Under the pieces are notes generated by a model. The model had not been told where the DNA came from, did not search any database, and was given only the letters and a program-made list of their open reading frames with translations. A DNA stretch of 64,000 nucleotides, from the NCBI RefSeq assembly GCF_017302275.1, contig NZ_JAFLDR010000001.1, positions 186,001-250,000 on the forward strand, given 5' to 3'. Both the position numbers and the translations under genes were made by a program. The stretch is from Sulfuritalea sp. (GTDB lineage: Bacteria > Pseudomonadota > Gammaproteobacteria > Burkholderiales > Rhodocyclaceae). Of the stretch, positions 47,492 through 63,596 are shown piece after piece. Position 1 is the stretch's first letter; every line of letters begins with the position of its first letter.

Positions 47492-47493
47492 GA

Positions 47494-47558
47494 GTGTCTC
47501 CAAAAGATAAAACCCATGGAGACACGTCTCCCCTTGCGGGAATGAGTGCCCGCAAGGG
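47494..47558 (-). promoter_or_regulatory. ICE two-hairpin leader of the DarB-like gene
   Basis: P1: CCCTTGCGGG / CCCGCAAGGG (47531-47558). P2: anti-Shine-Dalgarno GTGTCTCC (47518-47525) pairs over 8 bases with the ribosome site GGAGACAC (47494-47501), loop 16. The start codon follows two bases later. Confidence 0.75.
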
Positions 47559-47582
47559 TTGGTTAAAGTCGTCACGGTGTTC

Positions 47583-47723
47583 CGTGACAACCGGCTGATT
47601 GCTGTTTGTTTCAAGTCGCCAGCTGCGACCTTTCACCCCATCGGATTACCCGACAGGAAGAATTCGGCTTGCCGGGGCGTACTCATCGAGTGCGTCCGGG
47701 TAAGCCCCGTGCCGAGGCACGGG
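47583..47723 (-). ncRNA. Multi-hairpin ICE RNA element, copy A
   Basis: A 141-base element upstream of the DarB leader, related to 52687-52827, 55577-55728 and 58287-58438. Stems seen here: GTCG/CGAC around loop CCAGCTG; TCGG/CCGA; GGCTT/AAGCC; and CCCGTGC/GCACGGG at the 5' end of the RNA. Each differs in sequence from the other copies but keeps pairing. Confidence 0.65.
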
Positions 47724-47729
47724 GGTTGG

Positions 47730-48080
47730 TCAGATGTTGTGAAAGCAGCGAACCTCGACGACCCACTCGCGACGCTTGATGCGCCTCGGCAGGCCGGCAC
47801 GGGTTTGCAGGTGCCCACAACAGTCATGCTCGCAACGACAGGCTGTCGTGAATACATCCTGAAGCGCATTGATGATGTCGCCACTGGATAGACCACGCGG
47901 GGCGCGCACCGTGAAGATGCGCTCCCCGGCTTCGTCGTAACAAGCCTCCTGGTCACCGGGTGGGCGAACACGGCACTTGAGCATCACGAATTCTCCGATG
48001 AACTCGTGCGCGTCTTCCCCTTTCCAGCCATCGTTGAATTGAAACGTGAGGCGGCGATAGCCATCAAACCGGTTTCCCAT
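47730..48080 (-). CDS. Hypothetical ICE protein
   Basis: A 116-residue protein without a recognised domain. It has a Cys/His cluster near residue 82-90 (CRCEHDCCGH) that could bind a metal. It ends just before RNA element copy A and begins two bases after the stop of the gene at 48083-48538, so the two are probably cotranscribed. No signal peptide or membrane segment is present. Confidence 0.7.
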   Translation of the reverse strand: MGNRFDGYRRLTFQFNDGWKGEDAHEFIGEFVMLKCRVRPPGDQEACYDEAGERIFTVRAPRGLSSGDIINALQDVFTTACRCEHDCCGHLQTRAGLPRRIKRREWVVEVRCFHNI

Positions 48081-48082
48081 GG

Positions 48083-48538
48083 CTAGGCCTCCGCGTCCAT
48101 GATCGCCTCGATCGCGGCGTGAAGTCGCTCTACCGGCTCGGGCGCCACATCGGCATCGTAGAAACCACGCTTATAAACGTCGATGACATTGTCTTCTCCC
48201 CAGAGGGAAGGGACCGTCATGACTTCGTCGTCATCACAGCCTTCGACGTCGTAATCGAGCACAACGAATTCGAGGTTCACGTTCGCCGTGACGCCGGTTA
48301 CCAGGCCCCCTTCGAGTCCGATCACGCAGCGCACCGGCGTGCACAGATTGATGCGCTCGCACAGGGCATCGATGCCCGCGGTATCCAGTGATATCTGGAC
48401 ATCGTCATCCGTCGCAATGGCGTGAATCGCATCGCACCGACTGGACGGTTCGCCCTGGCCGTTCTGCTGGTAGAAGCGCAGTGCGGCCAGGAGGGTGGCA
48501 TGTTCGGCAGAATCGACCGAGATTATGTTTTGTGACAT
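48083..48538 (-). CDS. Hypothetical ICE protein
   Basis: A 151-residue acidic protein starting at ATG 48538, with the ribosome site GGAGCC 5 bases upstream. No known domain is seen. Its open frame continues upstream through IS630, but that longer version is an accident of the insertion. The IS630 copy sits between this gene's ribosome site and the distant half of its leader, so its expression may be disrupted or driven from the IS. Confidence 0.7.
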   Translation of the reverse strand: MSQNIISVDSAEHATLLAALRFYQQNGQGEPSSRCDAIHAIATDDDVQISLDTAGIDALCERINLCTPVRCVIGLEGGLVTGVTANVNLEFVVLDYDVEGCDDDEVMTVPSLWGEDNVIDVYKRGFYDADVAPEPVERLHAAIEAIMDAEA

Positions 48539-48553
48539 TGTCAGGCTCCAATA

Positions 48554-49655
48554 TTGAGAATCGTATAAATAACTGTCAACGCCATGATGGGTAAAAACGT
48601 TAATCTGCTTGTGTTCGTTTCGAGGTGCGACGATGAAGCACAAGCGGGATTTCAAGGCATTGGAGAAACGCCGGCTCAAGGGCGCAAAGCTCTTGGCGCG
48701 CGGCATGTCGAAGTCGGAGGTCGCTCGGGAATTGGGCGTTGCGCGACAAACGGTAGCGACCTGGGAGCAGAAACTGGCCGAGGGCGGCAAGGAATCGCTC
48801 AAGCGCGGCGATTTGGGTCGGCCACGCCAACTCGACACCGAGCAGGAGCGGGAACTGGGCAAGGTACTCATGGCGGGCGCATTGGCGGCTGGGTATCCGA
48901 CCGAACTATGGACGCTGCCTCGGATCGGCAAAGTGATCACCAAGCAGTTTGGCGTGGAATACAGCACCGGCCATTTGTGGCACCTGCTGCGCCGACTGGG
49001 TTTCTCTTGCCAGAAGCCCGAGAAGCGCGCCATCCAGCGCAACGAGGCGGAAATTGTGCGTTGGAAGCGGCACGGCTGGCCTGGGCTCAAAAAAAAGCCC
49101 AGCGAGAAGGCCGCACCATCGTCTTCATCGACGAATCCGGATTGAGCGAACGGCCCAGCGTCGCCCGTACCTGGAGCCTGCGTGGACAGACGCCAGTTCT
49201 TCAGCACAGTTTCACCTGGAAGCAACTCTCGGCCATTGCCGGTCTGTCCTTCTCGCAGTTCTACTTTCGATTCTTTCCTGGCGCGATCCGCTCGGAGCAG
49301 ATCATCGAATTTCTCGGCGCGCTCAAGCGTCAGATCAAAAGGCCGCTGCTGATCATCTGGGATGGCGCAGCGATCCATCGCAGCCGCAAGGTCAGCGCAT
49401 GGCTGGAAGAACTGAACGGACATATCGCGGTGGCGCGCCTGCCGGCCTATGCTCCCGAACTCAATCCGGTTGAAGCGATCTGGGCCTATCTCAAGAAGCA
49501 TGAGATTGCCAATCTGTGCCTCGACACCATCGGCGAAGTCGGTCAGTTCGCCCGCAATCGCCTCAAGTCCATGCAGCGGCGACCGACGTTGATCACCGCG
49601 TTTTGGAAACAGGCTGAGCTGGCGTTCTGATGTCATCTACTTATACGAGTCTCAA
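48554..49655 (+). mobile_element. IS630-family insertion sequence
   Basis: A 1102-base element with imperfect terminal inverted repeats (TTGAGAATCGTATAA left; TTGAGACTCGTATAA as the reverse complement of the right end). TA dinucleotides at 48552-48553 and 49656-49657 are the expected target duplication of IS630/Tc1-like elements. It splits the leader of the gene at 48083-48538. Confidence 0.9.
48633..49630 (+). CDS. IS630 family transposase (two frames, -1 frameshift)
   Basis: The first frame (48633-49145) encodes the helix-turn-helix DNA-binding part (ARGMSKSEVARELGVARQTV). The second, shifted by -1, encodes the catalytic DDE domain: FIDESG, then IIWDGAAIHRS, then LNPVEAIW with the final acidic residue. 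The shift occurs at an A8 run at 49090-49097, enclosed by CTGGGCT and AGCCCAG arms, so slippage could give one fused protein of about 332 residues. No other damage is seen, so the element may be active. Confidence 0.88.
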
Positions 49656-49664
49656 TAAAAAGGC

Positions 49665-49703
49665 GGAGCCATCGCCCCTTGCGGGGGTGAGTGGCCCGCA
49701 TGG
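49665..49703 (-). promoter_or_regulatory. ICE two-hairpin leader split by IS630
   Basis: P1: CCCTTGCGGG with CCCGCATGGG (about 49676-49703). The anti-Shine-Dalgarno GGCTCC (49665-49670) would pair with GGAGCC (48544-48549) before the gene at 48083-48538. The two halves are now separated by the IS630 element inserted at TA in the loop. Confidence 0.65.
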
Positions 49704-49804
49704 GTTTGAAATACTGCTGATGGTTGCTTCGTTTTCAGGCCATCGCTCTCAGCAATGCCGATCCGGCAGGCGATGCATTGGCCCTGCAGGAACAGGCACT
49801 CAGC

Positions 49805-49999
49805 CTAGCTCCTGAAAAAGTCCGCATACCCGCCACCGCTCTGGAGAATCCCGAATCTGTAATTGGGATCCTCCAATAGCCGGAGGTAATGTTCAGCATC
49901 CTTCCGCTGAAGCTCGGACAACCGGTTTCCTTTCAGAAGCTCGATCAGCCCTGCCTTGAACAGTTCCCGGTATGCGCCAGGCGTCGGAATGTGTTTCAT
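49805..49999 (-). CDS. Small hypothetical ICE protein
   Basis: A 64-residue basic protein (GAYRELFKAGLIELLKG) overlapping the end of the preceding gene by 4 bases (ATGA), which supports coupled translation. No recognised domain. The next ICE leader (split by IS630) lies about 100 bases beyond its stop. Confidence 0.6.
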   Translation of the reverse strand: MKHIPTPGAYRELFKAGLIELLKGNRLSELQRKDAEHYLRLLEDPNYRFGILQSGGGYADFFRS

Positions 50000-50241
50000 C
50001 GTCCATCTCCCTTCGGAGCGTAGTCAATGACGCACTCTCCCGTCTTCTGGTTGTAGACCGACCCCCAGTACCCCTCACCGGCCCATTTCCGGACAAGCTG
50101 GATAGCGCGGATGCGGCTTTGATTGACGACATCGTAAGCGGGAGTTCCTTCCATGCCCTCGTCGGTTCGCGGATCGCGAGATGTCGCGACGGCTTGATAG
50201 GTTTGCTCGTCCACCGGAACGATGCCTGTATCGAGTTTCAT
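49996..50241 (-). CDS. Small hypothetical ICE protein
   Basis: An 81-residue protein starting at ATG 50241 with GGAGG upstream. The frame extends 12 codons further but the leader structure fixes this start. The sequence (KLDTGIVPVDEQTYQAV, GYWGSVYNQKTGE) has no assigned domain. It forms a pair with the 64-residue gene at 49805-49999. Confidence 0.65.
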   Translation of the reverse strand: MKLDTGIVPVDEQTYQAVATSRDPRTDEGMEGTPAYDVVNQSRIRAIQLVRKWAGEGYWGSVYNQKTGECVIDYAPKGDGR

Positions 50242-50245
50242 TGTT

Positions 50246-50299
50246 GACCTCCAGAATGGTGAGAGGCCACTCCCCAACCGGGAAGTGGCCCCGGTTGGG
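50246..50299 (-). promoter_or_regulatory. ICE two-hairpin leader of the 49996 gene
   Basis: P1: CCCAACCGG / CCGGTTGGG (50273-50299). P2: GGCCTCT (50262-50268) pairs with the ribosome site GGAGGTC (50246-50252) including two G-U pairs. Confidence 0.65.
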
Positions 50300-50310
50300 A
50301 AAGGATTGCT

Positions 50311-50556
50311 TCAGATGCCGAGCGCCGCCCGTACCGCCTTTTTCCGCTGCGGATACGGCAACCCCGAAGGGGTGTTGATGCCGTAGTCCCGGCAGACCAG
50401 GATTCGCAGGCAGGCCAGGCGGGCAACGGCGGTGAACTGCCCGTTGTTCCGCGTCTTGTCCTTGAGCACGTCCTCCAGCCATTTCGATGACTGTTCGTTG
50501 GCTTGTCGGACGAGCCGGTAGAACATGGCGCGGCGAGCGGAGAGCAAAGTTCTCAT
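50311..50556 (-). CDS. Small hypothetical ICE protein
   Basis: An 81-residue basic, helical protein starting at ATG 50556 with GGAGGG upstream. It follows the 91-residue gene at 50561-50836 by 4 bases and is the last gene before the next leader. It contains LVRQANEQSSKWLEDVL and several Cys/Arg residues, with no domain recognised. Confidence 0.65.
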   Translation of the reverse strand: MRTLLSARRAMFYRLVRQANEQSSKWLEDVLKDKTRNNGQFTAVARLACLRILVCRDYGINTPSGLPYPQRKKAVRAALGI

Positions 50557-50560
50557 GCCA

Positions 50561-50836
50561 TCAGCCCTCCACGCGCAGGGTTGCAGTCGGTCTCGCAATT
50601 CCAGCGCTCTTCAGATACTCCAGAAGCCCGCCGGCATCGCGTCCGTGCCGCATGAAGCCGTTCTCGACAAGCCACAGCCCGTCTTCACTCGGCCAGCCGG
50701 TTTTCTCGTCCTCATTCGAGAACGAAAACACCGTTCGGCCGTTCTGATTCTCGACGCGCGACTTGAACCACCCGCGCTCGTCGAGATCGACCACCTGAAC
50801 CAGTTCCTGCCGGAAGGGCTTTAAGCTGCCTTTCAT
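50561..50836 (-). CDS. Small hypothetical ICE protein
   Basis: A 91-residue protein whose ATG overlaps the radC stop (ATGA), with AGGGGG upstream. The sequence (QVVDLDERGWFKSRVEN, FSFSNEDEKTGW) suggests a small globular beta-rich fold, but no family is recognised. It is probably translated together with the RadC-like protein. Confidence 0.65.
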   Translation of the reverse strand: MKGSLKPFRQELVQVVDLDERGWFKSRVENQNGRTVFSFSNEDEKTGWPSEDGLWLVENGFMRHGRDAGGLLEYLKSAGIARPTATLRVEG

Positions 50837-51441
50837 AGCAGCCCCCTTTCGGCGAACGAAAGTGTCTTGTTCCCGGCCACGATGAAGTGGTCCAGAACCT
50901 TGACATCCACCAGTGCCAGCGCAGCCTTGAGGCTAGTCGTCAGCATTTCGTCCGCCCGCGACTGGTCGGCTTCTCCGCTCGGATGGTTATGAGCGAGTAT
51001 CACCGCTGCCGCGTTGTGCACCAGCGCTCGCTTGACCACTTCCCGTGGGTAGACCGAGGTCTGGGTCAGCGTGCCGCGAAAGAGTTCTTCCGCGACGATC
51101 AACCGGTTCCTGGCGTCCATCCACAGGCACATGAATACTTCATGCTCGTAACCGCCGATCCGGCCACACAGGAATGTCGACGCCGCACTGGGCGAGGCCA
51201 GATCGATACCCGTACTGCTCATGTCTTCCTGCATTGCCCGGATGTAAAGCTCCTTCGCAGCGGCGATTTGCGGCTGCGCCGCGTAGGACGTCCGCTCTTC
51301 CCCTGCGATGAAGCTTGTCTGTCGTGCCGACCTGATCCCGAAAACTTCCGAGAGGGGACGTGTTGACAGGGCGCGACCCGACGGGCCACAGAGAACCGCC
51401 AGCAAATCGGCATTGGTCATTTCAATGGTGCGCATTTCCAT
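50833..51441 (-). CDS. radC: RadC-like JAB/MPN domain protein
   Basis: A 202-residue protein whose C-terminal domain (about 80-200) has the JAMM metal-binding signature with ligands in HNHPSGEADQSRAD. The RadC family is frequent on ICEs, phages and plasmids; its biochemical role is unsettled and the classical DNA-repair assignment is doubtful. ATG 51441 is chosen; an in-frame ATG two codons later is also possible. It leads a small operon of three genes. Confidence 0.85.
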   Translation of the reverse strand: MEMRTIEMTNADLLAVLCGPSGRALSTRPLSEVFGIRSARQTSFIAGEERTSYAAQPQIAAAKELYIRAMQEDMSSTGIDLASPSAASTFLCGRIGGYEHEVFMCLWMDARNRLIVAEELFRGTLTQTSVYPREVVKRALVHNAAAVILAHNHPSGEADQSRADEMLTTSLKAALALVDVKVLDHFIVAGNKTLSFAERGLL

Positions 51442-51499
51442 TTCATTTGCCTTTCAGGAAATGGGGCCGTGCGCATCCCCAGGGGGCGCATACGGCCCC
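51441..51499 (-). promoter_or_regulatory. ICE two-hairpin leader of the RadC-like gene
   Basis: P1: GGGGCCGT / ACGGCCCC (51463-51499) with further inner pairing. P2: CCATTTC pairs with GAAATGG, holding the start codon in the stem and the AAAGG ribosome site in the loop. Confidence 0.55.
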
Positions 51500-51599
51500 T
51501 GAGGGAGTAAATATGGAAGCCGCCGAAGCCACTCCCATCTTTTAGAAACGTGCTGCCTGCCATCCATGCCAGACCTGAACATGGGAGGCGACACGCGAA

Positions 51600-52421
51600 T
51601 TACTCATCGCGCATCGCCACCTCCTTCAAGGCCTGGGTACCCGCCTTGAGAATCTTGTCCGCCGCCGCAAACACCCGACGCGCCGACTTCTCCGGGAATT
51701 CCTTCCCATCGAGCCAGCTTTGGATGTAGCCCCGGCTTTCCTCCATGCCTGGCAACCCGAGGGTCGCGCAGCACAGGTAGGCCGTCGCCTCGGCTTCAGC
51801 CTCCTTGATGCATTTCGGCATCGTCGGGCCGTCGGCCATCACTCCTGTCTCGTCACCCGTGGCCGTGTGGCCAAGCAGGTGATGCGCAACTTCGTGGAAA
51901 AGTGTCTTCCATGGCATCGCGGCAACAGGATTGACAGCCACCTCGCGGACACCGCGTTTGGCATATCCCTGACAGTTGCCGTCGATTATCTCGAACGGAA
52001 CTTCCCGAATATCCAGCACGCCAAGCGCCTTTGCTTTGTCCCACTCCGGCGTCCACACCTCCGGCTGGAGAACATCGCCTTCCGTCTGGTCGAGACTGAA
52101 CCAGTTGCGCTTCAACAAAAAAATCATGTAAGCACCACCAGCCCCCTCTTCCAGGGTGTGTTCGTCCTTGTCCTTTCTCTTGATCGTGACCGGCATGATG
52201 AGAGAAAGGGCCTTCTCGCCTTTCCTGACCTTTCGGCCAAGATTTTTCCAGCGATTGAAGCTGGCAATGGGAGCGAGCGGAAGACCGCGCGCCGCCAGTT
52301 GAAATGCCGCAAGGATTGCGTTGCCCAGCGAGTAGTCGTGAAATACCGAGTACGCCTTTGACAGCGTTCCGGGTAGCGTCAGTGCCTGTTGCAGCAGGGC
52401 GTTCCAGTCAGGCTTTTCCAT
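51600..52421 (-). CDS. ArdC-like antirestriction protein (ssDNA-binding domain plus zincin)
   Basis: A 273-residue protein. An N-terminal ArdC/DUF1738-type domain (about 1-110, with SLGNAILAAFQ and GRKVRKGEKAL) is followed by a metallopeptidase-like domain with HEVAHHLLGH near residue 175. ArdC proteins from conjugative plasmids protect entering single-stranded DNA from restriction. ATG 52421 has AGGGAG upstream. The start overlaps the end of the 64-residue gene at 52408-52602. Confidence 0.85.
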   Translation of the reverse strand: MEKPDWNALLQQALTLPGTLSKAYSVFHDYSLGNAILAAFQLAARGLPLAPIASFNRWKNLGRKVRKGEKALSLIMPVTIKRKDKDEHTLEEGAGGAYMIFLLKRNWFSLDQTEGDVLQPEVWTPEWDKAKALGVLDIREVPFEIIDGNCQGYAKRGVREVAVNPVAAMPWKTLFHEVAHHLLGHTATGDETGVMADGPTMPKCIKEAEAEATAYLCCATLGLPGMEESRGYIQSWLDGKEFPEKSARRVFAAADKILKAGTQALKEVAMRDE

Positions 52422-52602
52422 GACCGGCTCCCTTGACTTCCTTGATCCACCAGTCCGATACACCGAGATAATTTCCGGTCACCGGGTGAACGTCGATCAA
52501 GTCGGCGCTGGCTTGCCATCCGCGCGAAGCGCGACAGGCACGAACATCGCCGCATCCATTGAACCGCCGCCAGCGTGTCGTTCCATCTTCATAGTGATAC
52601 AT
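52408..52602 (-). CDS. Small hypothetical ICE protein
   Basis: A 64-residue protein with GGAGG before ATG 52602 and a 14-base overlap with the ArdC-like gene. It contains HPVTGNYLGVSDWWIKEV and reads like a compact beta-rich domain, but I do not recognise it. It is the first gene after RNA element copy B and a two-hairpin leader. Confidence 0.65.
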   Translation of the reverse strand: MYHYEDGTTRWRRFNGCGDVRACRASRGWQASADLIDVHPVTGNYLGVSDWWIKEVKGAGHGKA

Positions 52603-52605
52603 GCT

Positions 52606-52667
52606 TGCCTCCAGACGAAAAAACCGCCGAAGGCACCAAGCCCGTCGCCGGGGTTGATGCCCCGGCG
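52606..52667 (-). promoter_or_regulatory. ICE two-hairpin leader of the 52408 gene
   Basis: P1: CGCCGGGG / CCCCGGCG (52646-52667). P2: TGCCTTC (52629-52635) pairs with the ribosome site GGAGGCA (52606-52612), one G-U. Confidence 0.7.
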
Positions 52668-52686
52668 GGGTTGTGAATGACGACCA

Positions 52687-52827
52687 GTTGCCTGAGCGCC
52701 GTTGATTGCTGATTGTTTCGAGCGGCCAGCTACCGCCTATGACACCCCTGGATTACCCGGGAGCGACAATTTCGCTTTCCGCAGCGCACCTCGCGATGCG
52801 CTCTGGAAAGTCCGCCTTTCGGCGGAC
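52687..52827 (-). ncRNA. Multi-hairpin ICE RNA element, copy B
   Basis: Stems (plus-strand notation): GCGG/CCGC around CCAGCTA; CCTGG/CCCGG; AGCGA/TCGCT; CTTTCC/GGAAAG enclosing AGCGC/GCGCT; and a 3' hairpin GTCCGCC/GGCGGAC. The motif GATTGTTTC beside the first stem is shared by all copies. Confidence 0.7.
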
Positions 52828-52834
52828 CTTCGTT

Positions 52835-52987
52835 TCATGCGATTTCCTTCAGAAGGCCCTTCTCCACAAGCGCCTTGAGTTGTGCGCTGAGTATCTGGAC
52901 CAGAAGCACCGATCCCTTGAAAAGAAGCACCCGTTTCCCGTCCGCGAGTTCTGCGACGGTTTGTGGTCCCAGGTACTGATATTTCAT
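52835..52987 (-). CDS. Small ICE protein (50 residues)
   Basis: A 50-residue frame starting at ATG 52987 with GGAGGG upstream. It reads as a basic N-terminal half (QYLGPQTVAELADGKR) then a hydrophobic/helical half (LLFKGSVLLVQILSAQLKAL). The ATG overlaps the stop of the 30-residue frame upstream (ATGA). Too short for family recognition; supported by ribosome site and coupling. Confidence 0.55.
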   Translation of the reverse strand: MKYQYLGPQTVAELADGKRVLLFKGSVLLVQILSAQLKALVEKGLLKEIA

Positions 52988-53076
52988 GATGCCCTCCTGT
53001 TACGAGGGATCCCCAACCCAATGCGTCCGGGCAGGGTTTCAATATCAACCGGGCTGACGTCAGCATTCCTGTCCAT
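52984..53076 (-). CDS. Very small ICE protein (30 residues)
   Basis: A 30-residue frame with AAGGAGG before ATG 53076, just after the primase stop, and an ATGA overlap with the next small gene. It contains DVSPVDIETLPGRIGLGIP. Either a micropeptide or a leader that couples translation of the 50-residue gene to the primase. Confidence 0.45.
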   Translation of the reverse strand: MDRNADVSPVDIETLPGRIGLGIPRNRRAS

Positions 53077-53089
53077 GGCGCCACCTCCT

Positions 53090-54166
53090 TCACGCGACGC
53101 GACGCATGGCATGTTCAACGGATTGCAAGGAAGGAAAACCTGCCTTGCCATCGCGATTGAGGATGTCGAGCCAGTCCAGTGACTTCTGACCGGCAGGAAT
53201 CTCGCCCGCAGGAACAATCGCACTGGCCTTGATACCCCGCTTCCAGAGCCTTTGGACCAGCCGTCTGGCTGCTTCCTGGCCATGCCCCCTTGGATGTTGC
53301 GTCGAGGGCTGATCCTTGTCGGCGAAGACCAGGATCTGACTCACGCCGGGTGGCGGGTAAAAGTGCTCCAGCAGATACGCATTGACCGCGCACCAGACCG
53401 GCATCTTCGTCCCTTCCATGACCGCGAGAGCCGTCTCCAGACCTTCTGCCACTGCCAGCACGGCGCCAGCCTCCACCAGTCGGATGACTCCGCCCGCCAG
53501 CTTCCGCTGACTTGGATACCGCATCAGCTTCCTGGGAGACTCGACAGGTGCCTTGTAGCCGTCCGCCGTCAGGTAGGTACGATGAATGGTGATGGCGTTG
53601 CCGCCGTGACCCTGCACCATGGCCAGCATCGCCGGAAACGTCCCGATCTCCTTTCTGTCCTCGAAATACGCGAGCGATGGATGGAGACGGAGTGTTTCCG
53701 GTTGTCGGATCGAGATACCTCTTCGGGCCAGATACAAGCGGGCCGGCTCAGCATCGGGATGAGAGAGGGCGATCGACTCGTTCCAGACACGGTTAAGCGC
53801 CTGGCGAGCCTTTTCGTCATCGTCGCCCTTGCTGGTCTGGCGAGAAATGGTTCTCCCGCCAAACGGCCTGGGGATGATGCCGACGCGCAGGTACTCGGCT
53901 ACGGACTTCAGTGCTTCCTTGAAATCCATGCCGGATACCCACATCAGCGTGGCAAATCCATCGGGATGGACGCCACAGGTATTGCAGACGCCGCCTCCCG
54001 AATCATCCACGTCGTTAAACACACGGTATCCGTCCTTGCCGCCGTGCACCGGGCAGGAAACGTGATGACCGACTCGATCAAGTGCAGGTTGAAGCTGTGG
54101 CGCAAGGGCCGAGAGAATCCCTCCCCAGCGGCCATGTGCAACAGCCTTGATTTCCTTTGCTTCCAT
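53090..54166 (-). CDS. Toprim-domain DNA primase
   Basis: A 358-residue mobile-element primase. An N-terminal zinc finger (CPVHGG...CNTCG, about residues 40-70) is followed by a linker domain and a C-terminal Toprim domain with the catalytic Glu in AVAEGLETALAV and the acidic pair in LVFADKD. It would prime the ICE strand after transfer. ATG 54166 is preceded by GGAGGC, which also overlaps an in-frame upstream ATG. The downstream genes are two micro-ORFs. Confidence 0.85.
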   Translation of the reverse strand: MEAKEIKAVAHGRWGGILSALAPQLQPALDRVGHHVSCPVHGGKDGYRVFNDVDDSGGGVCNTCGVHPDGFATLMWVSGMDFKEALKSVAEYLRVGIIPRPFGGRTISRQTSKGDDDEKARQALNRVWNESIALSHPDAEPARLYLARRGISIRQPETLRLHPSLAYFEDRKEIGTFPAMLAMVQGHGGNAITIHRTYLTADGYKAPVESPRKLMRYPSQRKLAGGVIRLVEAGAVLAVAEGLETALAVMEGTKMPVWCAVNAYLLEHFYPPPGVSQILVFADKDQPSTQHPRGHGQEAARRLVQRLWKRGIKASAIVPAGEIPAGQKSLDWLDILNRDGKAGFPSLQSVEHAMRRVA

Positions 54167-54169
54167 GAT

Positions 54170-54300
54170 TGCCTCCATGAGTAGCCCCGGACGGGACCTG
54201 CCGAAATGCCCGCGCGAGGCACTTGGGAAGGCCCCGTCGCGGGCCGGTGAATTCCCCACCGGCATAGAGGCACCCCGACCGGGGTAACTCCCCGGTGGGG
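54170..54300 (-). promoter_or_regulatory. ICE two-hairpin leader of the primase gene (long loop)
   Basis: P1: CCCCGACCGGGG / CCCCGGTGGGG (54273-54300). P2: TGCCTCT (54266-54272) can pair with GGAGGCA (54170-54176), but the loop is about 90 bases and holds another hairpin. Confidence 0.5.
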
Positions 54301-54344
54301 TTGGTAATGTCAGGCGCTAAAATCAGTGCCTGAGCGCGAAGCCA

Positions 54345-54752
54345 TCAGAATGGCCCGTCATCGAATGGCTGAGCTGCCCTGGAGTTTCCTTTCGGCGCCG
54401 ATCTGGACGCGTCAGAACCTTCCCTGGCCTTGCCGCCGCTGGGGAGCATCTTCATGCTCTCGCCGACGATTTCAGTGGTGTAGCGAGTCTCGCCATCCTT
54501 GTCCCATGAACGGGTCTGGAGACGGCCCTCGACATACACCAGCGACCCTTTCTTCAGATACTCGGCCACAATCTCGGCGAGTTTTCCGAAGAACACGACA
54601 CGGTGCCATTCCGTTTTTTCGTGCTTCTCGCCATCCTTCTTCCAGCTTTCGCTGGTGGCGATATTTGCGCGCGCAATGGCATCGCTGTCATTGGTGCGTC
54701 GAAGCTCGGGGTCAGCCCCCAGAAAACCGATCAACTGAACCTTGTTAAGCAT
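54345..54752 (-). CDS. ssb: Single-stranded DNA-binding protein
   Basis: A 135-residue SSB with an OB fold (residues 1-105, including [12 protein letters not shown] and [17 protein letters not shown]) and a short tail ending DDGPF, the acidic tip that contacts partner proteins (usually DDDIPF). It starts at ATG 54752 with AAGGAG. As an ICE-borne SSB it would work with the RecT annealing protein, nuclease and primase encoded nearby. Confidence 0.92.
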
Positions 54753-54759
54753 GATGAAC

Positions 54760-54822
54760 TCCTTGTGATGAAAAGGACGGTCACACCATGCCCCTGACGG
54801 GAGCATGACGATCCCGCCGGGT
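54760..54822 (-). promoter_or_regulatory. ICE two-hairpin leader of ssb
   Basis: P1: CGGGA / TCCCG with flanking pairs (54791-54822). P2: TCCTT (54773-54777) pairs with AAGGA (54760-54764), the ribosome site. Confidence 0.6.
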
Positions 54823-54838
54823 TGGTTGAAAAACTCGA

Positions 54839-55495
54839 CTACTGCGGCGCTTCCATGCACTCGCCGGCCATGAACGCCACCCACTGGGCTGCCTTCGCCA
54901 AAGTTCTGAAGCTTGCGTGAGGACCGCCGTCGACAAACACCGAATAGGGATCTTCGCCAACGCGCTTCGCGACAATCTGCAACTGAGGCGCCTGATATTT
55001 CGGGTGCTCCCAGAGAACCTTCCGATCTGCCACATCCATCAGCCTGACGATAGAGTGATCGAGAATGCTGACACCCCATGCCTCGCCGTTCTGTAGAAGA
55101 ATGGGAATCTTGAAAGTACCCGACGAGCGGCCTATTTTTCCCACCACGTCGTTTTCTTCCAGCCAGTCTTCGCCCCGCTCCACATCTCCGTAGAAGAGGC
55201 GAATCGCCTTGCCGCTCTTGCGGTACTGCTCCAGGATTCGGCGAACCTTGACAGGAGTGTCGAGATTGAACCAGGTCTCCTTGAGATTTGCCTTGGCAGC
55301 TTCATTGATGGCGCGCTGAAAATCAGCGTACTGACCGATGGTTCCCTTCTCATCCTCGCGAATCTGGATCGAGAGATTCAGCCGCGCCACGAGTTGCTTC
55401 AATTGCTTGAAGACATGCTCGAAGCCCAGGGTCGAATACCCCTTGCCAGCGGAAACAACGAACAACTCCTGCTCGTGATTGATTACAACGTCCAT
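54839..55495 (-). CDS. Hypothetical ICE protein of the recombination operon
   Basis: A 218-residue soluble protein starting at ATG 55495 with GGAGG. The sequence is helical in the first half ([19 protein letters not shown]) and mixed in the second; no domain recognised. It lies between the recT and ssb genes, so a role in ICE DNA replication or recombination is plausible but unproven. Confidence 0.75.
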
Positions 55496-55499
55496 TGCA

Positions 55500-55564
55500 A
55501 CCTCCAGACGAAAAACCGCCGGAGGCGCTCGTTCCCTGCCGGGAGCTTGCGCCCCACGGCGGGG
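55500..55564 (-). promoter_or_regulatory. ICE two-hairpin leader of the 54839 gene
   Basis: P1: imperfect CCCTGCCGGG with CCACGGCGGGG (55534-55564). P2: GCCTCC (55521-55526) pairs with GGAGGT (55500-55505). Confidence 0.6.
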
Positions 55565-55576
55565 TTTTAATGGCAA

Positions 55577-55728
55577 CCGGTTTCCCGATTGCAGCCAGAT
55601 GCTGTTTGTTTCAGAAGGCCAGCTACCTTCATGTCCCGTTGGCATAGCCAGGGGAACAATTTGGAATAATTTCCTTTCCGCAGCACGGACCGCTCCATGC
55701 TCTGGAAAGCCCCGTGCCGAAGCACGGG
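55577..55728 (-). ncRNA. Multi-hairpin ICE RNA element, copy C
   Basis: Stems: GAAGG/CCTTC around loop CCAGCTA; TTGG/CCAG; CTTTCC/GGAAAG enclosing AGCA/TGCT; and CCCGTGC/GCACGGG. Compared with copies A, B and D, pairing is kept while both strands change. Confidence 0.7.
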
Positions 55729-55735
55729 GAGGGGT

Positions 55736-56863
55736 TTAGATCAGTCGGCCGATGGCTGCCTTGCATGTGCGGTATTCCCGCATCAAGGCCTCCAGCTCGG
55801 ATCCATCCAGATCACCTTCGGCGCGGACATAGATCTCGTCCAGTACCTCGATGCTTGTTGCCTTGGCCATCTGTTCGTAGATCGCTTTCAGCTTGGCGCT
55901 GGGTTCCTGGTCAGAGGCATCGGAAGCGATGGCAGACACACCATCCACTTTCACCTTCTTTCTAGTTGCGTCAGCCACCTCAACCGGACCGCCACCCGGC
56001 CTGGATTGGCTGGCATCGCGGCTTGTCACCGGCTTGGCGTCTGCGATCTCGCCTGTCTCGTCGTCAATGATCGGTGCGTAGTTGCCCTCGATCACATCGG
56101 TCAAATTCAGGTTTTGCGCCTTGCCCTGCTCCGCAGCTGCGTCCAGGGCGAGTGCCGAGGCCAGCTCAGGTGATTTGGGCAGGAATTTGCACAGGCGACG
56201 AATCGCTGTCTTCAGACCCATGGCCGTAAAGTCGGAATCCCATACAGATTCCTTCTTGTATCGCTTGGCAGACTGATAGCCTCGCGAGTTGTCGCGAATC
56301 TTCTCAACCTCCTTACGCCCCATTGCCACGAACGTCCGACTTCCATCCTTGAACACAGCGACGGAATAAAAACCGGCGACATCACCACGCTCGTCGTCGG
56401 CGGCAGGAAAGCCGCCCAGCGTCGTCAATGGCTCGTGATCGAGACTGCGTTCCATGCCCAGCTTGAGGGTAAAAACATCATTCACCCTGACTTCGTGGGC
56501 ATAGATGTCCTGAACCAGTCCGGACTGTCGAGCGAGCTTCATCAGGCCCGTGTAGCCGGGGATCAACTGGCACTGGTTGCCAAACGGCACCAGATGCGCT
56601 TCCCCCATGAGACCGACTTCCAGCCCCATCTGCGAAGACTGGATGACCGCGGCGAATACGCTGCGTGGATCACACTCTCCAAGCTTGGGTGTCATTCGGA
56701 ATGCAGTAAGTGCAATGCGCGCCATGCGGTCCGGATTGATGTGCTTTGGCAGGGCGCGGGCAATTTCACCCTTGAACTGCTCCAGCATGGCCGGGAAACC
56801 TTTCGGTTGCTCAGCATCGTTGGCCGTAGTGCGATTGATGTTTTTCAAGGCTTGCAGTGACAT
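55736..56863 (-). CDS. recT: RecT family single-strand annealing protein
   Basis: A 375-residue RecT-like recombinase. The core (about residues 20-240) has the family segments MGLEVGLMGEAHLVPF, IPGYTGLMKLARQSG and KESVWDSDFTAMGLKTAIRRL. The remaining 130 residues are a variable tail. ATG 56863 has GGAGG upstream. With the nuclease at 57247-58200 and the SSB it makes a complete RecET-type annealing system, comparable to the recombination modules of SXT-type ICEs. Confidence 0.93.
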   Translation of the reverse strand: MSLQALKNINRTTANDAEQPKGFPAMLEQFKGEIARALPKHINPDRMARIALTAFRMTPKLGECDPRSVFAAVIQSSQMGLEVGLMGEAHLVPFGNQCQLIPGYTGLMKLARQSGLVQDIYAHEVRVNDVFTLKLGMERSLDHEPLTTLGGFPAADDERGDVAGFYSVAVFKDGSRTFVAMGRKEVEKIRDNSRGYQSAKRYKKESVWDSDFTAMGLKTAIRRLCKFLPKSPELASALALDAAAEQGKAQNLNLTDVIEGNYAPIIDDETGEIADAKPVTSRDASQSRPGGGPVEVADATRKKVKVDGVSAIASDASDQEPSAKLKAIYEQMAKATSIEVLDEIYVRAEGDLDGSELEALMREYRTCKAAIGRLI

Positions 56864-56868
56864 GGTAT

Positions 56869-56936
56869 TGACCTCCAGAAAAATGGAAAAGGCGGTCACA
56901 CCACGCCCCTTGCGGGAACATGGCATTCCCGCCGGG
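56869..56936 (-). promoter_or_regulatory. ICE two-hairpin leader of recT
   Basis: P1: CCCCTTGCGGGA / TCCCGCCGGG (56907-56936). P2: TGACCGCC (56891-56898) pairs with GGAGGTCA (56869-56876) at 7 of 8 positions; the TGACC/GGTCA pairs are a compensated variant of TGCCT/AGGCA in other leaders. Confidence 0.7.
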
Positions 56937-56954
56937 TTGATTACTGCTGCTGCT

Positions 56955-57245
56955 TCACCGTTTCAGACTATTCCTCGGTGCGAGGGGTTGCATAGCCTGA
57001 GGACGGAATTCCTGTCGGTTGCACATCGCATCTGCTGTTTCGATTTCCGAATCAACATAGCTATGTTTGACGCAGGCAAGGAGCAATCGACGACTTTCCT
57101 TGAGCGCGCGCCTGCAACGGACCACTTCGGCTTCTGCCTGTTTGAGGGCATCCACCTTTGCTTCCACTCGGGCAGCGATCAACAGAATCGGATCCCCGAC
57201 CTCGTAGAGATAGGGTGCGACCTTCTCGATTGGATTGCTCGGCAC
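56955..57245 (-). CDS. Small hypothetical coiled-coil ICE protein
   Basis: A 96-residue protein starting at GTG 57245, one base after the nuclease stop, with GGAGAG upstream. The middle part is a heptad-rich helix (ARVEAKVDALKQAEAEVV). It looks translationally coupled to the RecE-like nuclease. No family recognised. Confidence 0.6.
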   Translation of the reverse strand: MPSNPIEKVAPYLYEVGDPILLIAARVEAKVDALKQAEAEVVRCRRALKESRRLLLACVKHSYVDSEIETADAMCNRQEFRPQAMQPLAPRNSLKR

Positions 57246-57246
57246 T

Positions 57247-58200
57247 TCAGCTCTCCAGATCAAAGTTCGCCGCCCAGCGTGGCAATTCGATCGTTTCGAT
57301 CTCCCCGTTTGGCTGATACGCCGGCCAGCGGTTGTTCGCACGACACCATTGCAGGAGCTGCAGCGCACCGCGATACTTGGCGCGCCCGACGTCGATGACG
57401 TCCTCGCTTGCGCGATAGACCGCTGCCGCTTGCGGACCGTCCTTTTCGACGGCGATGTAGTAGAACGGGAGCGTCCTGCCGGTGATGGCTTTTATGCCGT
57501 CCTGATAGAACGCCGCTTGCAGGTCGTAACCGAGCGTGGCGATTGAACGAGCAAATCCCTCTGCCGAAGCATCGACGCAGGTTTTTACATCCACGATGCC
57601 GGTGACGATTCCATCGGCCATGACAAGCCAGTCCGGTCGGCATCTACATCCGAGCCCGGTCTCCGGATCACTCCAGAAGCCGGACATTTCAGCCATCCCG
57701 TTCGCCAGCAAACGCGCAGCGCCCGCGTGACGAGAGAGGCTTGCCTGGATGGACCGGATGGCCATCATCAGGGTGGGTGTCAGGATTTGCTTGCCGTCAT
57801 ACAACCTGGCAATTGCCTCCTCCCGAAAAACAAATCTGGACTCGACGTCGGCCACCTTGATGGCGTCCTTGATCTCTTCCTTCCTCATCTTTCCGACCTT
57901 GATACCCAGTTCCGCAGCCGCGGCCTTGTAGTCATCGAGCGACTGCAACGAACCTTCGAGTTGCGACTCGTCAAATACCGCGTAATCGGAAGCGAATGCG
58001 GCCGGTTCAAGAACCGCGGAGTGAACGGCCGTACCAAACGCCATTGCCGGGGTCGGCTCGGGCGGATGGGTGACGTATTCCTGAAAATGCGCCGGAGACC
58101 GCATGATCCGCACAAGGCTTGAATGCCCAACAGCGTCCTTGTTGCGGTGGTACTCCTCGGCCGCCATCGACAGAAGGCCGACTTGAGTTTCTATAAGCAT
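57247..58200 (-). CDS. recE: RecE/YqaJ-like PD-(D/E)XK exonuclease
   Basis: A 317-residue nuclease related to the catalytic domain of exonuclease VIII. Motifs include the N-terminal HSSLVRIMRSPAHF and the metal-binding core with CRCRPDWL followed by IVDVKTC (the D-x-K of the PD-(D/E)XK fold) near residues 185-205. It would resect double-stranded ends for RecT to anneal. ATG 58200 has GGAGG; an upstream frame extension is rejected. Confidence 0.88.
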   Translation of the reverse strand: MLIETQVGLLSMAAEEYHRNKDAVGHSSLVRIMRSPAHFQEYVTHPPEPTPAMAFGTAVHSAVLEPAAFASDYAVFDESQLEGSLQSLDDYKAAAAELGIKVGKMRKEEIKDAIKVADVESRFVFREEAIARLYDGKQILTPTLMMAIRSIQASLSRHAGAARLLANGMAEMSGFWSDPETGLGCRCRPDWLVMADGIVTGIVDVKTCVDASAEGFARSIATLGYDLQAAFYQDGIKAITGRTLPFYYIAVEKDGPQAAAVYRASEDVIDVGRAKYRGALQLLQWCRANNRWPAYQPNGEIETIELPRWAANFDLES

Positions 58201-58203
58201 TTC

Positions 58204-58271
58204 TACCTCCAGAGGCAAGATTCCCGCTGGAGGCACTTATTCCCTGCCGGGAACATGCGTCCCTGGCGGGG
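58204..58271 (-). promoter_or_regulatory. ICE two-hairpin leader of the nuclease gene
   Basis: P1: CCCTGCCGGG with CCCTGGCGGGG (58242-58271). P2: TGCCTCC (58229-58235) pairs with GGAGGTA (58204-58210), one G-U. Confidence 0.65.
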
Positions 58272-58286
58272 TTGTAAATGACAGGC

Positions 58287-58438
58287 AGTTGCCTGACTGT
58301 CGCTAATGGCTGTTTGTTTCGAGCGGCCAGCTACCGCCTCTTGATGCTCCTGGTTACCCAGAAGCGACAATCTGGCTTTCCGCAGCACACCGCAACACAC
58401 TTGCGATGCGCTCTGGAAAGCCCGCACCAAAGCGCGGG
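58287..58438 (-). ncRNA. Multi-hairpin ICE RNA element, copy D
   Basis: Stems: GCGG/CCGC around CCAGCTA; CTGG/CCAG; CTTTCC/GGAAAG enclosing a longer inner loop; CCCGC/GCGGG. The motif GCTGTTTGTTTCGAGCGG is almost the same as in copies A and B. Confidence 0.7.
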
Positions 58439-58451
58439 ATAGGTGGATCAC

Positions 58452-58488
58452 GCATCACGCAAACCAAAATATCCGGTTTGCGTGATGC
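58452..58488. terminator. Perfect 14-base inverted repeat between micropeptide 1 and RNA copy D
   Basis: GCATCACGCAAACC / GGTTTGCGTGATGC with a 9-base loop. No T-run on the gene strand. It could end the upstream transcript or bind a protein. Confidence 0.5.
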
Positions 58489-58534
58489 CTGACGATCAAG
58501 GGGTGAGACGCATCTTGACGACAGGTGCCAGTCG

Positions 58535-58618
58535 TCATCGCAGTCCCAACGCGCGAACGATGGGGCGGCTGATGATGAAACCAGAAACGGCACACATCGC
58601 GAGTATCAGAAATATCAT
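58535..58618 (-). CDS. Hydrophobic micropeptide 1 (27 residues)
   Basis: A 27-residue frame starting at ATG 58618 with AAGGAG 8 bases upstream. The first 17 residues are a membrane-spanning helix (MIFLILAMCAVSGFIIS), followed by a short basic tail RPIVRALGLR. The tail and the end of the helix are shared with micropeptide 2 at 58764-58844 (GF-x-ISRPI-x-RALGLR). Two independent frames with the same peptide motif and good ribosome sites argue strongly for real genes. Function unknown; a small inner-membrane protein or toxin-like peptide is possible. Confidence 0.7.
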   Translation of the reverse strand: MIFLILAMCAVSGFIISRPIVRALGLR

Positions 58619-58690
58619 GGCTAGGCTCCTTGTCGGGTTGATGAATGAACCCCACACGAGTTGCCAGGCTTGATGCGCGCCCGTAACAAC

Positions 58691-58736
58691 CCCGCAGGCC
58701 TAAGGACTCTCTTTCGAAAATCTTTAGGCCTGCGGG
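58691..58736. promoter_or_regulatory. Perfect 13-base hairpin between the two micropeptide genes
   Basis: CCCGCAGGCCTAA / TTAGGCCTGCGGG around a 20-base loop. It takes the place of the P1 hairpin upstream of micropeptide 1 and could also end the micropeptide 2 transcript. Confidence 0.6.
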
Positions 58737-58763
58737 ATTCCCACAGGCGAGGTTGGTGCTGGT

Positions 58764-58844
58764 TTAGCGCAGACCCAGCGCCCGAATGATCGGACGACTG
58801 ATGACGAAACCACCAATGCAGCACGCGATAAGAACGAGTTCCAT
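58764..58844 (-). CDS. Hydrophobic micropeptide 2 (26 residues)
   Basis: A 26-residue frame starting at ATG 58844 with AAGGAGA upstream. Sequence: a hydrophobic helix (MELVLIACCIGGFVIS) and the tail RPIIRALGLR, paralogous to micropeptide 1. It has a clear two-hairpin leader that would hide its ribosome site. The conservation of the C-terminal ISRPI-x-RALGLR despite a freely changed N-terminus indicates selection on the peptide. Confidence 0.7.
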   Translation of the reverse strand: MELVLIACCIGGFVISRPIIRALGLR

Positions 58845-58846
58845 GA

Positions 58847-58908
58847 TGTCTCCTTGAAAAAAATGCGGAGACACCAAGCCCCAGGCGGGGAGAGTATCCC
58901 CGCATGGG
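58847..58908 (-). promoter_or_regulatory. ICE two-hairpin leader of micropeptide 2
   Basis: P1: CCCAGGCGGGGA / TCCCCGCATGGG (58879-58908). P2: TGTCTCC (58867-58873) pairs perfectly with the ribosome site GGAGACA (58847-58853), loop 13. Confidence 0.75.
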
Positions 58909-58932
58909 TTTGAATTGCTTCAGAGCGTCGAG

Positions 58933-59292
58933 TTAGAGCACCACTTCAAACCGGGCTTCGGTTTCGGTGGGAGCAACAACTTGCGACTTTTTGACGGCCT
59001 TCTTTCTCTTGGCCGGCTTTTTCGGTTGCACGACTTCCAGCGTCGGCATCGGAATGCCGCGCCGGATAAAGGCAGGTACGTCGTACTTCGACCAGTCCTC
59101 TTCGCCATCGTCATGACTGACAGGCGAGGATGCCGACACGGATCGGTGCCATTCCGGGATCTTTTGCGCGCCGGGCCAATGTTCAGGTGTGGCCACCGGC
59201 GGTGAAAATGCCAGGTGTCCGAACCTGCCAACAGCAAGCACGAAAAGATGTACTGTCCCAATAAGCGATGCAACCAGAAGAACTTTTTCCAT
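58933..59292 (-). CDS. Hypothetical ICE membrane-anchored protein
   Basis: A 119-residue protein with one N-terminal hydrophobic segment (VLLVASLIGTVHLFVLAVG) that is a signal anchor, then an acidic stretch and a Lys-rich C-terminal part (PKKPAKRKKAVKKS). TTGGAGG precedes ATG 59292. It is the first gene of the leftward ICE operon set and faces the acaB-like gene across 290 bases. No family recognised. Confidence 0.7.
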   Translation of the reverse strand: MEKVLLVASLIGTVHLFVLAVGRFGHLAFSPPVATPEHWPGAQKIPEWHRSVSASSPVSHDDGEEDWSKYDVPAFIRRGIPMPTLEVVQPKKPAKRKKAVKKSQVVAPTETEARFEVVL

Positions 59293-59294
59293 GA

Positions 59295-59357
59295 TGCCTC
59301 CAAGTCAAGAATCCTGGAGACACCTGCTCCCATTGCGGGATGGGCATCCCGCAGGGG
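59295..59357 (-). promoter_or_regulatory. ICE two-hairpin leader of the 58933 gene
   Basis: P1: CCCATTGCGGGA / TCCCGCAGGGG (59329-59357). P2: TGTCTCC (59316-59322) pairs with GGAGGCA (59295-59301), one G-U. Confidence 0.7.
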
Positions 59358-59396
59358 TTACAGAGTACCGCCACGCACTGGCATGAACGGCACGTA

Positions 59397-59437
59397 AATG
59401 CTGATTGTTTCCAGCGGCCAGCTACCGCTTCATCGAT
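59397..59437 (-). ncRNA. Partial multi-hairpin ICE RNA element, copy E
   Basis: Only the 3' part of the element is present: the GATTGTTTC motif and the stem AGCGG/CCGCT around loop CCAGCTA. The remaining stems cannot be seen, so this is a remnant or a shortened form. Confidence 0.5.
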
Positions 59438-59582
59438 GGCACTAGGCACAACGAATGTGGAGCCATTTTCACTGAGCCGTTTGTGATTTGCAACCGCCAG
59501 ACGGTGCACTTTTGTGCGCTTTTCGCATTCGATTCTGGCGCCTGGTTTTGTAGCATGAACCTACCTCATCAGGAGTTCATAG

Positions 59583-61934: not shown

Positions 61935-62046
61935 AATGCGCCCGGCCTGTGCGCTTTTAGCCATCCGAATTACTGGCGATCTGGCTAATATTTGCTTGAC
62001 TGCAATGCCCACAAAGTTGCGTTCCCAGAGACATCTCGAAACTGAA

Positions 62047-62352
62047 ATGAAAACCTACACATCAGATGAGGCCGCCAAGTTTCTGGCGACAGACGTTTCG
62101 ACCGTTCGAGCCCTAATCGACGACGGCTTCTTGCCAGCAGCGAAGATTGGCCGAGCATGGGTAATGCTCGAATCAGACCTCGTCGACTTTTTGTCGGTAC
62201 GAATCCGAGAGCAAACAGCCGAGCGAATTGAACGCGCCGTTATCACTGACAGGAATCGCAATCAGAGCGAGGTTAGTCAAACTCGCCGCTATCGCGGCCG
62301 GCGAAGACTCCCCGAATTACCAGAGCTTCCCGGCGAGCGTGGTACCGCGTAG
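62047..62352 (+). CDS. Excisionase-like helix-turn-helix DNA-binding protein
   Basis: A 101-residue protein with an N-terminal MerR/AlpA-type excisionase fold (YTSDEAAKFLATDVSTVRAL then KIGRAWVMLESDLVDFL) and a basic C-terminal tail. It is the partner expected beside a tyrosine integrase, biasing the reaction toward excision. Its 3' end overlaps the convergent integrase gene by 36 bases. The ribosome site before ATG 62047 is weak; an antitoxin role is an alternative. Confidence 0.75.
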   Translation: MKTYTSDEAAKFLATDVSTVRALIDDGFLPAAKIGRAWVMLESDLVDFLSVRIREQTAERIERAVITDRNRNQSEVSQTRRYRGRRRLPELPELPGERGTA

Positions 62353-63435: not shown

Positions 63436-63546
63436 TCGCGTACACGGCAAATTGTATAGTGGACGGGTGGTTTGCCACCTTTCCCGGGTGGCAAGTACCC
63501 CTTTTTACCATGTTTTGCCGCGATAACCAACCCGGTGACGGGCAAC

Positions 63547-63574: not shown

Positions 63575-63596
63575 GTCTATATTCAGTAACTTATTT

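Follow-up and report, generated by a model that had tools for sequence, protein, structure and literature searches.

A candidate family of pseudoknot-bearing leader RNAs in IncC-related conjugative elements and their satellites

Why should one multi-hairpin element recur in front of unrelated genes within a single mobile region? The question is raised by a 64,000-nt stretch of Sulfuritalea sp. DNA (GCF_017302275.1, NZ_JAFLDR010000001.1, positions 186,001-250,000), here called the window. The original prediction described four copies (A-D) of about five hairpins each, together with a remnant, and took them for regulatory RNAs or long cis-elements encoded by an integrative and conjugative element. 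Our computations showed a conserved core with a covarying stem (S1) and a conserved loop and tail, a leader position, a folding bias toward the sense strand and the distribution described below. The copies are very probably members of one family of cis-acting 5'-leader RNAs, which is carried by IncC-related conjugative elements and by their satellites.

The conserved core and its leader position

The core consists of hairpin stem S1, a loop YAGCTGG and, 3' of the stem, a tail AAAYAAnCAGC. The spacing of loop and tail is fixed, with the tail 14 nt from where the loop starts in 150 of the 152 distinct copies. The scan behind this count accepted only hits that had the loop, four standard pairs and such a tail, and thus presupposed loop and tail. 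In an alignment of 77 sequences (A3; L008, L058, L130, rows with fewer than 10 nt upstream and near-identical rows left out), every one of the five S1 pairs shows two-sided changes, and none of 500 shuffles reached the covariation score. The count of further S1 pair types was unremarkable (reached by 76 of 500 shuffles). The third pair is CG in 33 sequences, AU in 32, UA in 11 and unpaired in one, and the closing pair varies too (GC 138, AT 7, CG 7; n = 152). The compensating changes around a fixed loop first noticed in the window are therefore correct, and covariation is present in the larger set as well.

GCTG in the loop is complementary to CAGC in the tail (S2), a pairing that would yield an H-type pseudoknot with an A-rich third loop. 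The four S2 pairs are invariant in A3, which is uninformative taken alone; the sequences were collected by a pattern fixing loop and tail, and the invariance of both is partly by construction. Departures come from searches with R1, a covariance model of the core that has the window's own copies among its building rows. One-sided changes to CAGT (L105:4148) and TAGC (L064:5016) each leave a G.U pair. Two near-identical copies (L082:3009 and L095:5164) have a hairpin in place of the A-rich loop and keep CAGC, and a short type (L132:27062, L124:252) with a 2-bp S1 and a shortened third loop keeps both GCTG and CAGC. The core is probably an H-type pseudoknot built of S1 and S2.

R1 identified five core copies in the window (E <= 5), all on the minus strand and spaced 1.1-5.1 kb apart (Table 1). 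Elements A-D are intergenic and were recovered independently as repeats (families D1-D4, D13, D20). The core pattern, with up to three mismatches, occurs five times in the genome, every time in the window, and its reversed control not at all. Model, repeat search and alignment thus agree with the original prediction on four elements and a fifth motif, and the alignment also brings out the common order and spacing of A-D. The description of the fifth motif (59395-59431) as a remnant did not survive: its core is intact, has the second-best R1 score in the window and lacks only two upstream hairpins. We call it copy E.

On the minus strand, the order from 5' to 3' is H1, H2, H3, the core, sometimes an extra hairpin, an AACCC hairpin and an anti-Shine-Dalgarno arm. 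The predicted hairpins are there, arranged as two modules: H3 and the pseudoknot in every copy, H1 and H2 in internal copies. The GC-rich hairpin H1 has a short U-run after it. H2 is an imperfect helix (median 16 bp) in which a small internal loop separates an inner stem from the outer CTTTCC/GGAAAG stem. Its outer TTTCC/GGAAA is almost invariant and its inner stem covaries, with 75.2% paired versus 56.3% for shuffled partners (0/1000; 39 distinct anchored copies); a 3x3 register is equally good (76.5% paired). H3 has a GTAA or UUCG loop in some copies. A palindrome, TTTCACATGTGAAA, recurs in H2 (L105, L110, L132) or the leader hairpin (L053, L061, L098) of gammaproteobacterial copies and could be an operator.

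The AACCC hairpin and anti-Shine-Dalgarno arm also form a second repeated leader on the minus strand of window 47400-59400 (for example, at 58890-58924, 56890-56940, 54770-54830 and 50270-50320). This leader fronts genes with or without a pseudoknot and is found in IncC plasmids and before SGI1 S022. Leader hairpins without a pseudoknot exist in the window, and the pseudoknot does not therefore precede every gene; the scan for such leaders is noisy and serves only to establish their existence.

Leader position and strand were assessed on 89 copies, after 63 of the 152 distinct copies were removed as redundant or cut. A Shine-Dalgarno-led start of an open reading frame of at least 60 amino acids lies 55-140 nt downstream in 54 of the 83 copies usable in the position control. 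The opposite strand has such a start in 4 of 81 cases, and random positions of the same strand in 247 of 1660. An earlier, looser scan gave such starts for 77 of 89 copies, at a median of 110 nt. Folding from -130 to +115 favored the sense strand (mean z -4.34 versus -3.02 for antisense; Wilcoxon p ~6e-9, a value that is optimistic because the copies are related rather than independent), which was the more stable strand in 59 copies and the antisense in 29. Within H2, an excess of G.T over A.C cells (8 versus 4) is weak and agrees with this bias.

The first downstream products include a DUF3799 nuclease, SSB, an N6-methylase (DarB-like), RadC, an AAA ATPase, DUF3150, a PAPS reductase domain, a cytosine methylase, DUF4942 and several proteins without a Pfam match. 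Mechanical open frames overlap some copies. The leader position before Shine-Dalgarno-led starts and the recurrence before unrelated genes give no support to a coding or insertion sequence-type repeat. The proposal of regulatory RNAs or cis-elements holds in view of the 5'-leader position, the better folding of the sense strand and a published transcription start site (TSS) of the SGI1 family just upstream of one copy.

We also compared the sequences upstream of 35 copies without H2 and 54 with H2, a split of the 89 made by a crude folding rule. AcaCD-like boxes (consensus CCSAAAWW, PMC8409611; the strict form also took CCSAGAWW, both strands) were more frequent without H2, both with one mismatch (18/35 versus 10/54, p 0.002) and in the strict form (8/35 versus 2/54, p 0.01). 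A promoter fit of at least 9/12 separated the classes as well (8/35 versus 3/54, p 0.02), a contrast significant at one of three limits only (p 0.07 at 8/12, p 0.08 at 10/12). The best fit upstream of copy E is TTGCAA-17-GAAAAT (8/12); at the 9/12 limit the scan gave no site at copy E and 4 sites in the region versus 5.5 expected.

Conjugative elements and the SGI1-family island

The core is carried by 18 of 200 related genomes, the Sulfuritalea genome itself included, and by that genome alone among 274 sampled over the class. An exact pattern gave 94 stretches among 84,980 species genomes and, in a separate search of viral contigs, two; a query with copy D matched no phage record. Searching elements with the covariance model, as the original prediction had proposed, revealed further copies, in clusters, in beta- and gammaproteobacterial elements, IncC plasmids and an SGI1-family island. 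IncC plasmids and SGI1 are important multidrug-resistance carriers among enteric bacteria. In whole-record searches (E <= 0.01), IncC plasmid CP012668 has eight copies (weakest E 0.009) on a single strand between 89.7 and 113.9 kb, and pSTJ2 has seven. As a query, a 281-nt stretch surrounding an Edwardsiella IncC copy hit 806 of 72,556 plasmid records, of which 796 are typed conjugative and 680 are matched over at least 80% of the query. It also hit 98 of 5,426 complete E. coli genomes, 79 of them at that coverage. Both counts refer to the whole stretch and not to the core record by record.

A MOBH relaxase domain (TraI_2) is present in 19 of the 34 core-bearing genomes or records, again with the Sulfuritalea genome counted. 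The 15 without it include five with a single copy (G479, G480, G485, G486, G487) and several fragmented assemblies. Such a domain lies at 84767-85687 of contig C1 (G000), the same contig as the pseudoknot cluster and ~148 kb from it (window 59400-63808). Two tRNA genes adjoin an integrase at window 62317-63450. The whole may be a single, very long element that has metabolic cargo in between.

The SGI1-family record OX345320 (L159) connects the core to a mapped transcript. R1 matched it at 5235-5265 (E 0.0022) and 7389-7429 (E 1.3e-12); the short-type copy is 741 nt upstream of mpsA and the full copy downstream of mpsB. The sections of Nagy 2021 on this transcript place the TSS upstream of S022 at mobSGI1 position 2,014, the S022 start at 1,881 and an 11-bp imperfect inverted repeat at 1,923-1,948 (PMC9299015). 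The same distances hold in L159 if its repeat is placed at 5301-5326, its start codon at 5368 and the TSS at ~5235, and OX345320 presumably equals SGI1-C of that study. The TSS is then ~7 nt before the pseudoknot, and the core (5242-5261) spans roughly positions +8 to +27 of an actual transcript. According to the same sections, by far the greater part of transcription stalls at 70-80 nt from the start, full-length RNA measures 650-700 nt, 5' ends near 1,957 and 1,911 (+57 and +103) are attributed to cleavage and promoter removal lowers SGI1 transfer by two orders of magnitude; the strain description for the Northern blots names no helper plasmid (PMC9299015).

Fifteen loci hold the core and an mpsA-like gene (Integrase_1, PF12835, in most members scanned). 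In nine loci the core lies upstream of the gene's matched stretch, at 424-829 nt, and in six it lies downstream; an AcaCD-like box precedes the core in all six (exact in L038, L042 and L099; one mismatch in L053, L100 and L106). Six rows of alignment A4 (L012, L020, L021, L041, L043, L071) have a common promoter-like region and the pseudoknot, followed in five of them by a stem that resembles a terminator and in L021 shows a compensatory change. In L071 (737-1137), L012, L020, L021 and L041, the pseudoknot is in a standalone-looking transcript, with promoter-like and terminator-like regions, upstream of mpsA-like genes, and a conserved CAAAGAGACGG stretch beyond it may be part of an origin of transfer. 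The pseudoknot as a general companion of MpsA-like genes was rejected: the core is in one of 10 examined plasmid regions (of 120 records), that of OX345320 only. The mpsA-like DNA of L042 had no matching E. coli genome.

Proposed control after initiation and its rivals

How could such a leader act? We propose that it controls transcription after initiation by attenuation or antitermination, and not only RNA stability or translation. The mechanism on its own remains tentative, at slightly less than even odds; leader RNA family and mechanism together are, with a probability of roughly one half, the best explanation as a whole. The pseudoknot would form at the nascent transcript's 5' end when RNA polymerase is moving away from a promoter or is reading past the terminator-like H1 that belongs to the genes before. 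It would then recruit a conserved partner, either RNA polymerase itself or a factor of the host or element, and this partner would decide if transcription and processing go on beyond the next hairpin. The Shine-Dalgarno-blocking hairpin may act as a second gate, at translation, and H2 of internal copies is a plausible processing site of the RNase III type. Recognition of nascent RNA and control after initiation are suggested by the 5'-end position, the early stop near the next hairpin, the existence of genes with the same leader and no pseudoknot, and the conservation of loop and tail across two bacterial classes. The control of IncC and SGI1 described in the literature is transcription activation by AcaCD/SgaCD; a common RNA leader would be a further layer, and the pseudoknot could account for the early stop, so far unexplained, of the sgm primary transcript of SGI1.

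An extension of this proposal, rather unlikely, is that IncC-type elements and SGI1-like satellites share an RNA-level password: the 5' pseudoknot of early operons, which a partner must recognize for passing a built-in stop. If so, a satellite with the same pseudoknot would be expressed together with its helper, and the post-initiation layer added to AcaCD control would account for the premature stop seen in SGI1.

Several observations weigh against control by antitermination and the pseudoknot on which it would depend. S2 has no two-sided change in any copy, and the divergent copy L008 (CAGA, outside the alignment) breaks one S2 pair. H1 has no U-run in 13 of 45 copies and runs of three, four or five in 21, 9 and 2; it is absent from the terminator scan's minus-strand list, and a stricter scan of the coding (minus) strand of window 47400-59500 gave no terminators. 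The SGI1 hairpin is without a U-tract (CCCTCAGGGGGACTGTCCCCTAGGGG followed by CACTCC), and the stop at 70-80 nt falls inside this hairpin, so that the short RNA could be an RNase cleavage product. The division of copies by H2 has the crudeness of its folding rule. The IncC plasmid has eight pseudoknots in 24 kb, whereas one per operon would suffice for classical processive antitermination, and the tra region of CP012668 (59-88 kb) has none at E <= 0.01, leaving tra operons without the pseudoknot. Finally, we identified no trans-acting partner of the pseudoknot. The number of terminator-like hairpins on the coding strand failed to separate the two IncC regions, with 7 in the 27.1 kb pseudoknot region versus 5 in the 28.2 kb tra region.

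Four other explanations were weighed. The first, which we consider unlikely, is operon dicing with 5'-end protection: RNase III would cut H2, H1 would guard the upstream 3' end, and H3 and the pseudoknot would guard the new 5' end, all without a switch. It agrees with the SGI1 5' ends near +57 and +103 interpreted as cleavage (PMC9299015). It would also explain the GC-rich hairpin ahead of H2 in 45 of the 54 copies classed with H2 and the long imperfect H2 helix with its covarying inner part. However, any stable hairpin would guard a 5' end, and this reading leaves unexplained why loop and tail are conserved in both beta- and gammaproteobacteria.

The gp32 protein of phage T4 represses translation at a 5' pseudoknot. 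An autogenous or regulatory protein site of this kind, where an element-encoded nucleic-acid-binding protein (SSB, RecT-like) on the pseudoknot represses translation, has a low probability here. SSB, RecT, ArdC and DUF3799 nuclease genes do lie in or beside pseudoknot-led segments, and an A-rich stretch and the Shine-Dalgarno-blocking arm follow downstream. Against such a site, none of the 15 loci with a pseudoknot and an mpsA-like gene has, within the examined stretch, a homologue of the SSB, RecT, ArdC or nuclease of the window.

A trans-acting small RNA, with the short pseudoknot RNA itself the regulator and the leaders its source or target, seems less probable still. The promoter-like regions and terminator-like stems of the A4 rows suggest it, two of which (L012, L021) have no Shine-Dalgarno-led start in the 220 nt examined, as does the stop of most SGI1 transcription at 70-80 nt (PMC9299015). 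Yet mechanical open frames follow or overlap these A4 copies, and the sections of PMC9299015 on sgm-sRNA place its functional core no less than 440 nt beyond the TSS, the 5' part being dispensable for function even though its deletion lowered transfer. An element that works at the DNA level is very improbable. In this reading a hairpin on the strand entering the recipient would serve for priming or as a single-stranded DNA promoter (Frpo/ssi type), and the led genes do fit the leading-region type (SSB, antirestriction, methylases). However, if the folded strand were the template, antisense folding would be expected, and it is the sense strand that folds better; the UUCG and GTAA loops of some H1 and H3 favor RNA, and the mapped SGI1 TSS is upstream of the pseudoknot.

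Known systems and features of the window

The leader RNA with its predicted pseudoknot is absent from Rfam 15 and from the literature searched. Only tRNAs reached the gathering score in an Rfam 15 search of the window and 17 loci. A known riboswitch class was rejected, the sole candidate being a SAH riboswitch (RF01057, 52687-52798) with 26.5 bits (E 0.27), below the gathering score of 37 bits. No description of the motif was found in the open-licence literature, a search that left most subscription papers and all supplementary files outside, or in the portions consulted of two surveys of new bacterial RNAs (PMC11109978, with its 250 mobile or repeat candidate sequences outside the comparison, and PMC8632094).

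Nearest in kind is STAXI (RF01728), a pseudoknot in tandem sets of two or, more usually, three that lies near genes for SSB, topoisomerase and antirestriction and whose UUCG loops argue for RNA (Weinberg 2010, PMC2864571). Both are pseudoknotted and repeated and share gene neighbors (SSB, antirestriction), but the pseudoknots described here are single, kilobases apart and in leaders, and STAXI was rejected as an identity (none of six genomes or records at the gathering cut-off; best E 4.5 in the Sulfuritalea genome). The sgm-sRNA of SGI1 is similar in that the matching OX345320 primary transcript would begin with the pseudoknot followed by the leader hairpin, and differs in having its functional domain in the far 3' part; the word pseudoknot is absent from PMC9299015. 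Frpo/ssi elements are hairpins upstream of leading-region anti-defence genes that, in the sections describing them (PMC11541004), fold on a single strand and contain the -35/-10, whereas the present copies fold downstream of the start and favor the sense strand. The conAn system of pLS20 also has a structured RNA at the start of a conjugative-element operon; that operon contains internal terminators and is a Gram-positive conjugation operon, with RNA and protein ConAn1 at its start rather than many copies outside tra operons; the same source names the HK022 put RNA (PMC8955417). The best R1 match in 25000-40751 of NC_002166 (15.8 of 40.8 kb), where put is not annotated, had an E of 0.49. The put RNA of phage HK022 is a short structured RNA of two simple hairpins beside the promoter of a long operon. 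An ops/RfaH recruitment site, whose ops sequence GGTAGC resembles, was rejected: copies with CGTAGCTGGCG, GATAGCTGGTC and CCTAGCTGGGG lack GGTAGC and keep the hairpin.

Table 1. Copies of the leader element, and the genes that they lead, in the window.
Feature	Position	Strand	Description
Copy A pseudoknot core	47601-47630 (R1 match 47597-47637)	-	R1 45.9 bits; stem GTCG/CGAC, loop CAGCTGG, tail GAAACAAACAGC
Copy A led gene	42560-47491		DarB-like; helicase/N6-methylase domains
Copy A hairpin H3	47632-47659	-	Read off the sequence
Copy A H1 and H2	47666-47724	-	H1 CCCCGTGC-CTCG-GCACGGGG, then H2 GGCTTACCCGG...CCGGCAAGCC
Copy B pseudoknot core	52708-52737 (R1 match 52704-52744)	-	R1 50.7 bits
Copy B led genes	51600-52463 (ArdC)		Small open reading frame, then ArdC (Pfam ArdcN)
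Copy B hairpin H3	52741-52767	-	
Copy B H1 and H2	52775-52827	-	H1 GTCCGCC-GAAA-GGCGGAC, then H2 CTTTCC...GGAAAG
Copy C pseudoknot core	55601-55630 (R1 match 55597-55637)	-	R1 55.5 bits; stem GAAGG/CCTTC
Copy C led genes	54839-55492; 54345-54752		217 aa gene, then SSB (Pfam SSB)
Copy C hairpin H3	55632-55657	-	
Copy C H1 and H2	55674-55729	-	H1 CCCCGTGC-TTCG-GCACGGGG, then H2
Copy D pseudoknot core	58309-58338 (R1 match 58305-58345)	-	R1 53.0 bits
Copy D led gene	57247-58200		PDDEXK nuclease (Pfam DUF3799)
Copy D hairpin H3	58341-58370	-	CTTCTGG-GTAA-CCAGGAG
Copy D H1 and H2	58374-58438	-	H1 CCCGCGC-TTTG-GTGCGGG, then H2 GGCTTTCC...GGAAAGCC
Copy D downstream leader	58198-58270	-	AACCC hairpin and arm CCTCCAG able to pair with Shine-Dalgarno stretch CTGGAGG
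Copy E pseudoknot core	59400-59430 (R1 match 59396-59436)	-	R1 53.6 bits; without H1 and H2
Copy E hairpin H3	59431-59457	-	CATTCG...CGATG; read off the sequence

The DarB name of the gene led by copy A, a tentative one, comes from the original prediction. Between copies A and B, the open frame at 48083-49636 resembles an IS630-type transposase by eye. On the plus strand, 46398-46444 matches the Pseudomonas small RNA P26 below the Rfam threshold (27.7 bits versus a cut-off of 36), probably by chance.

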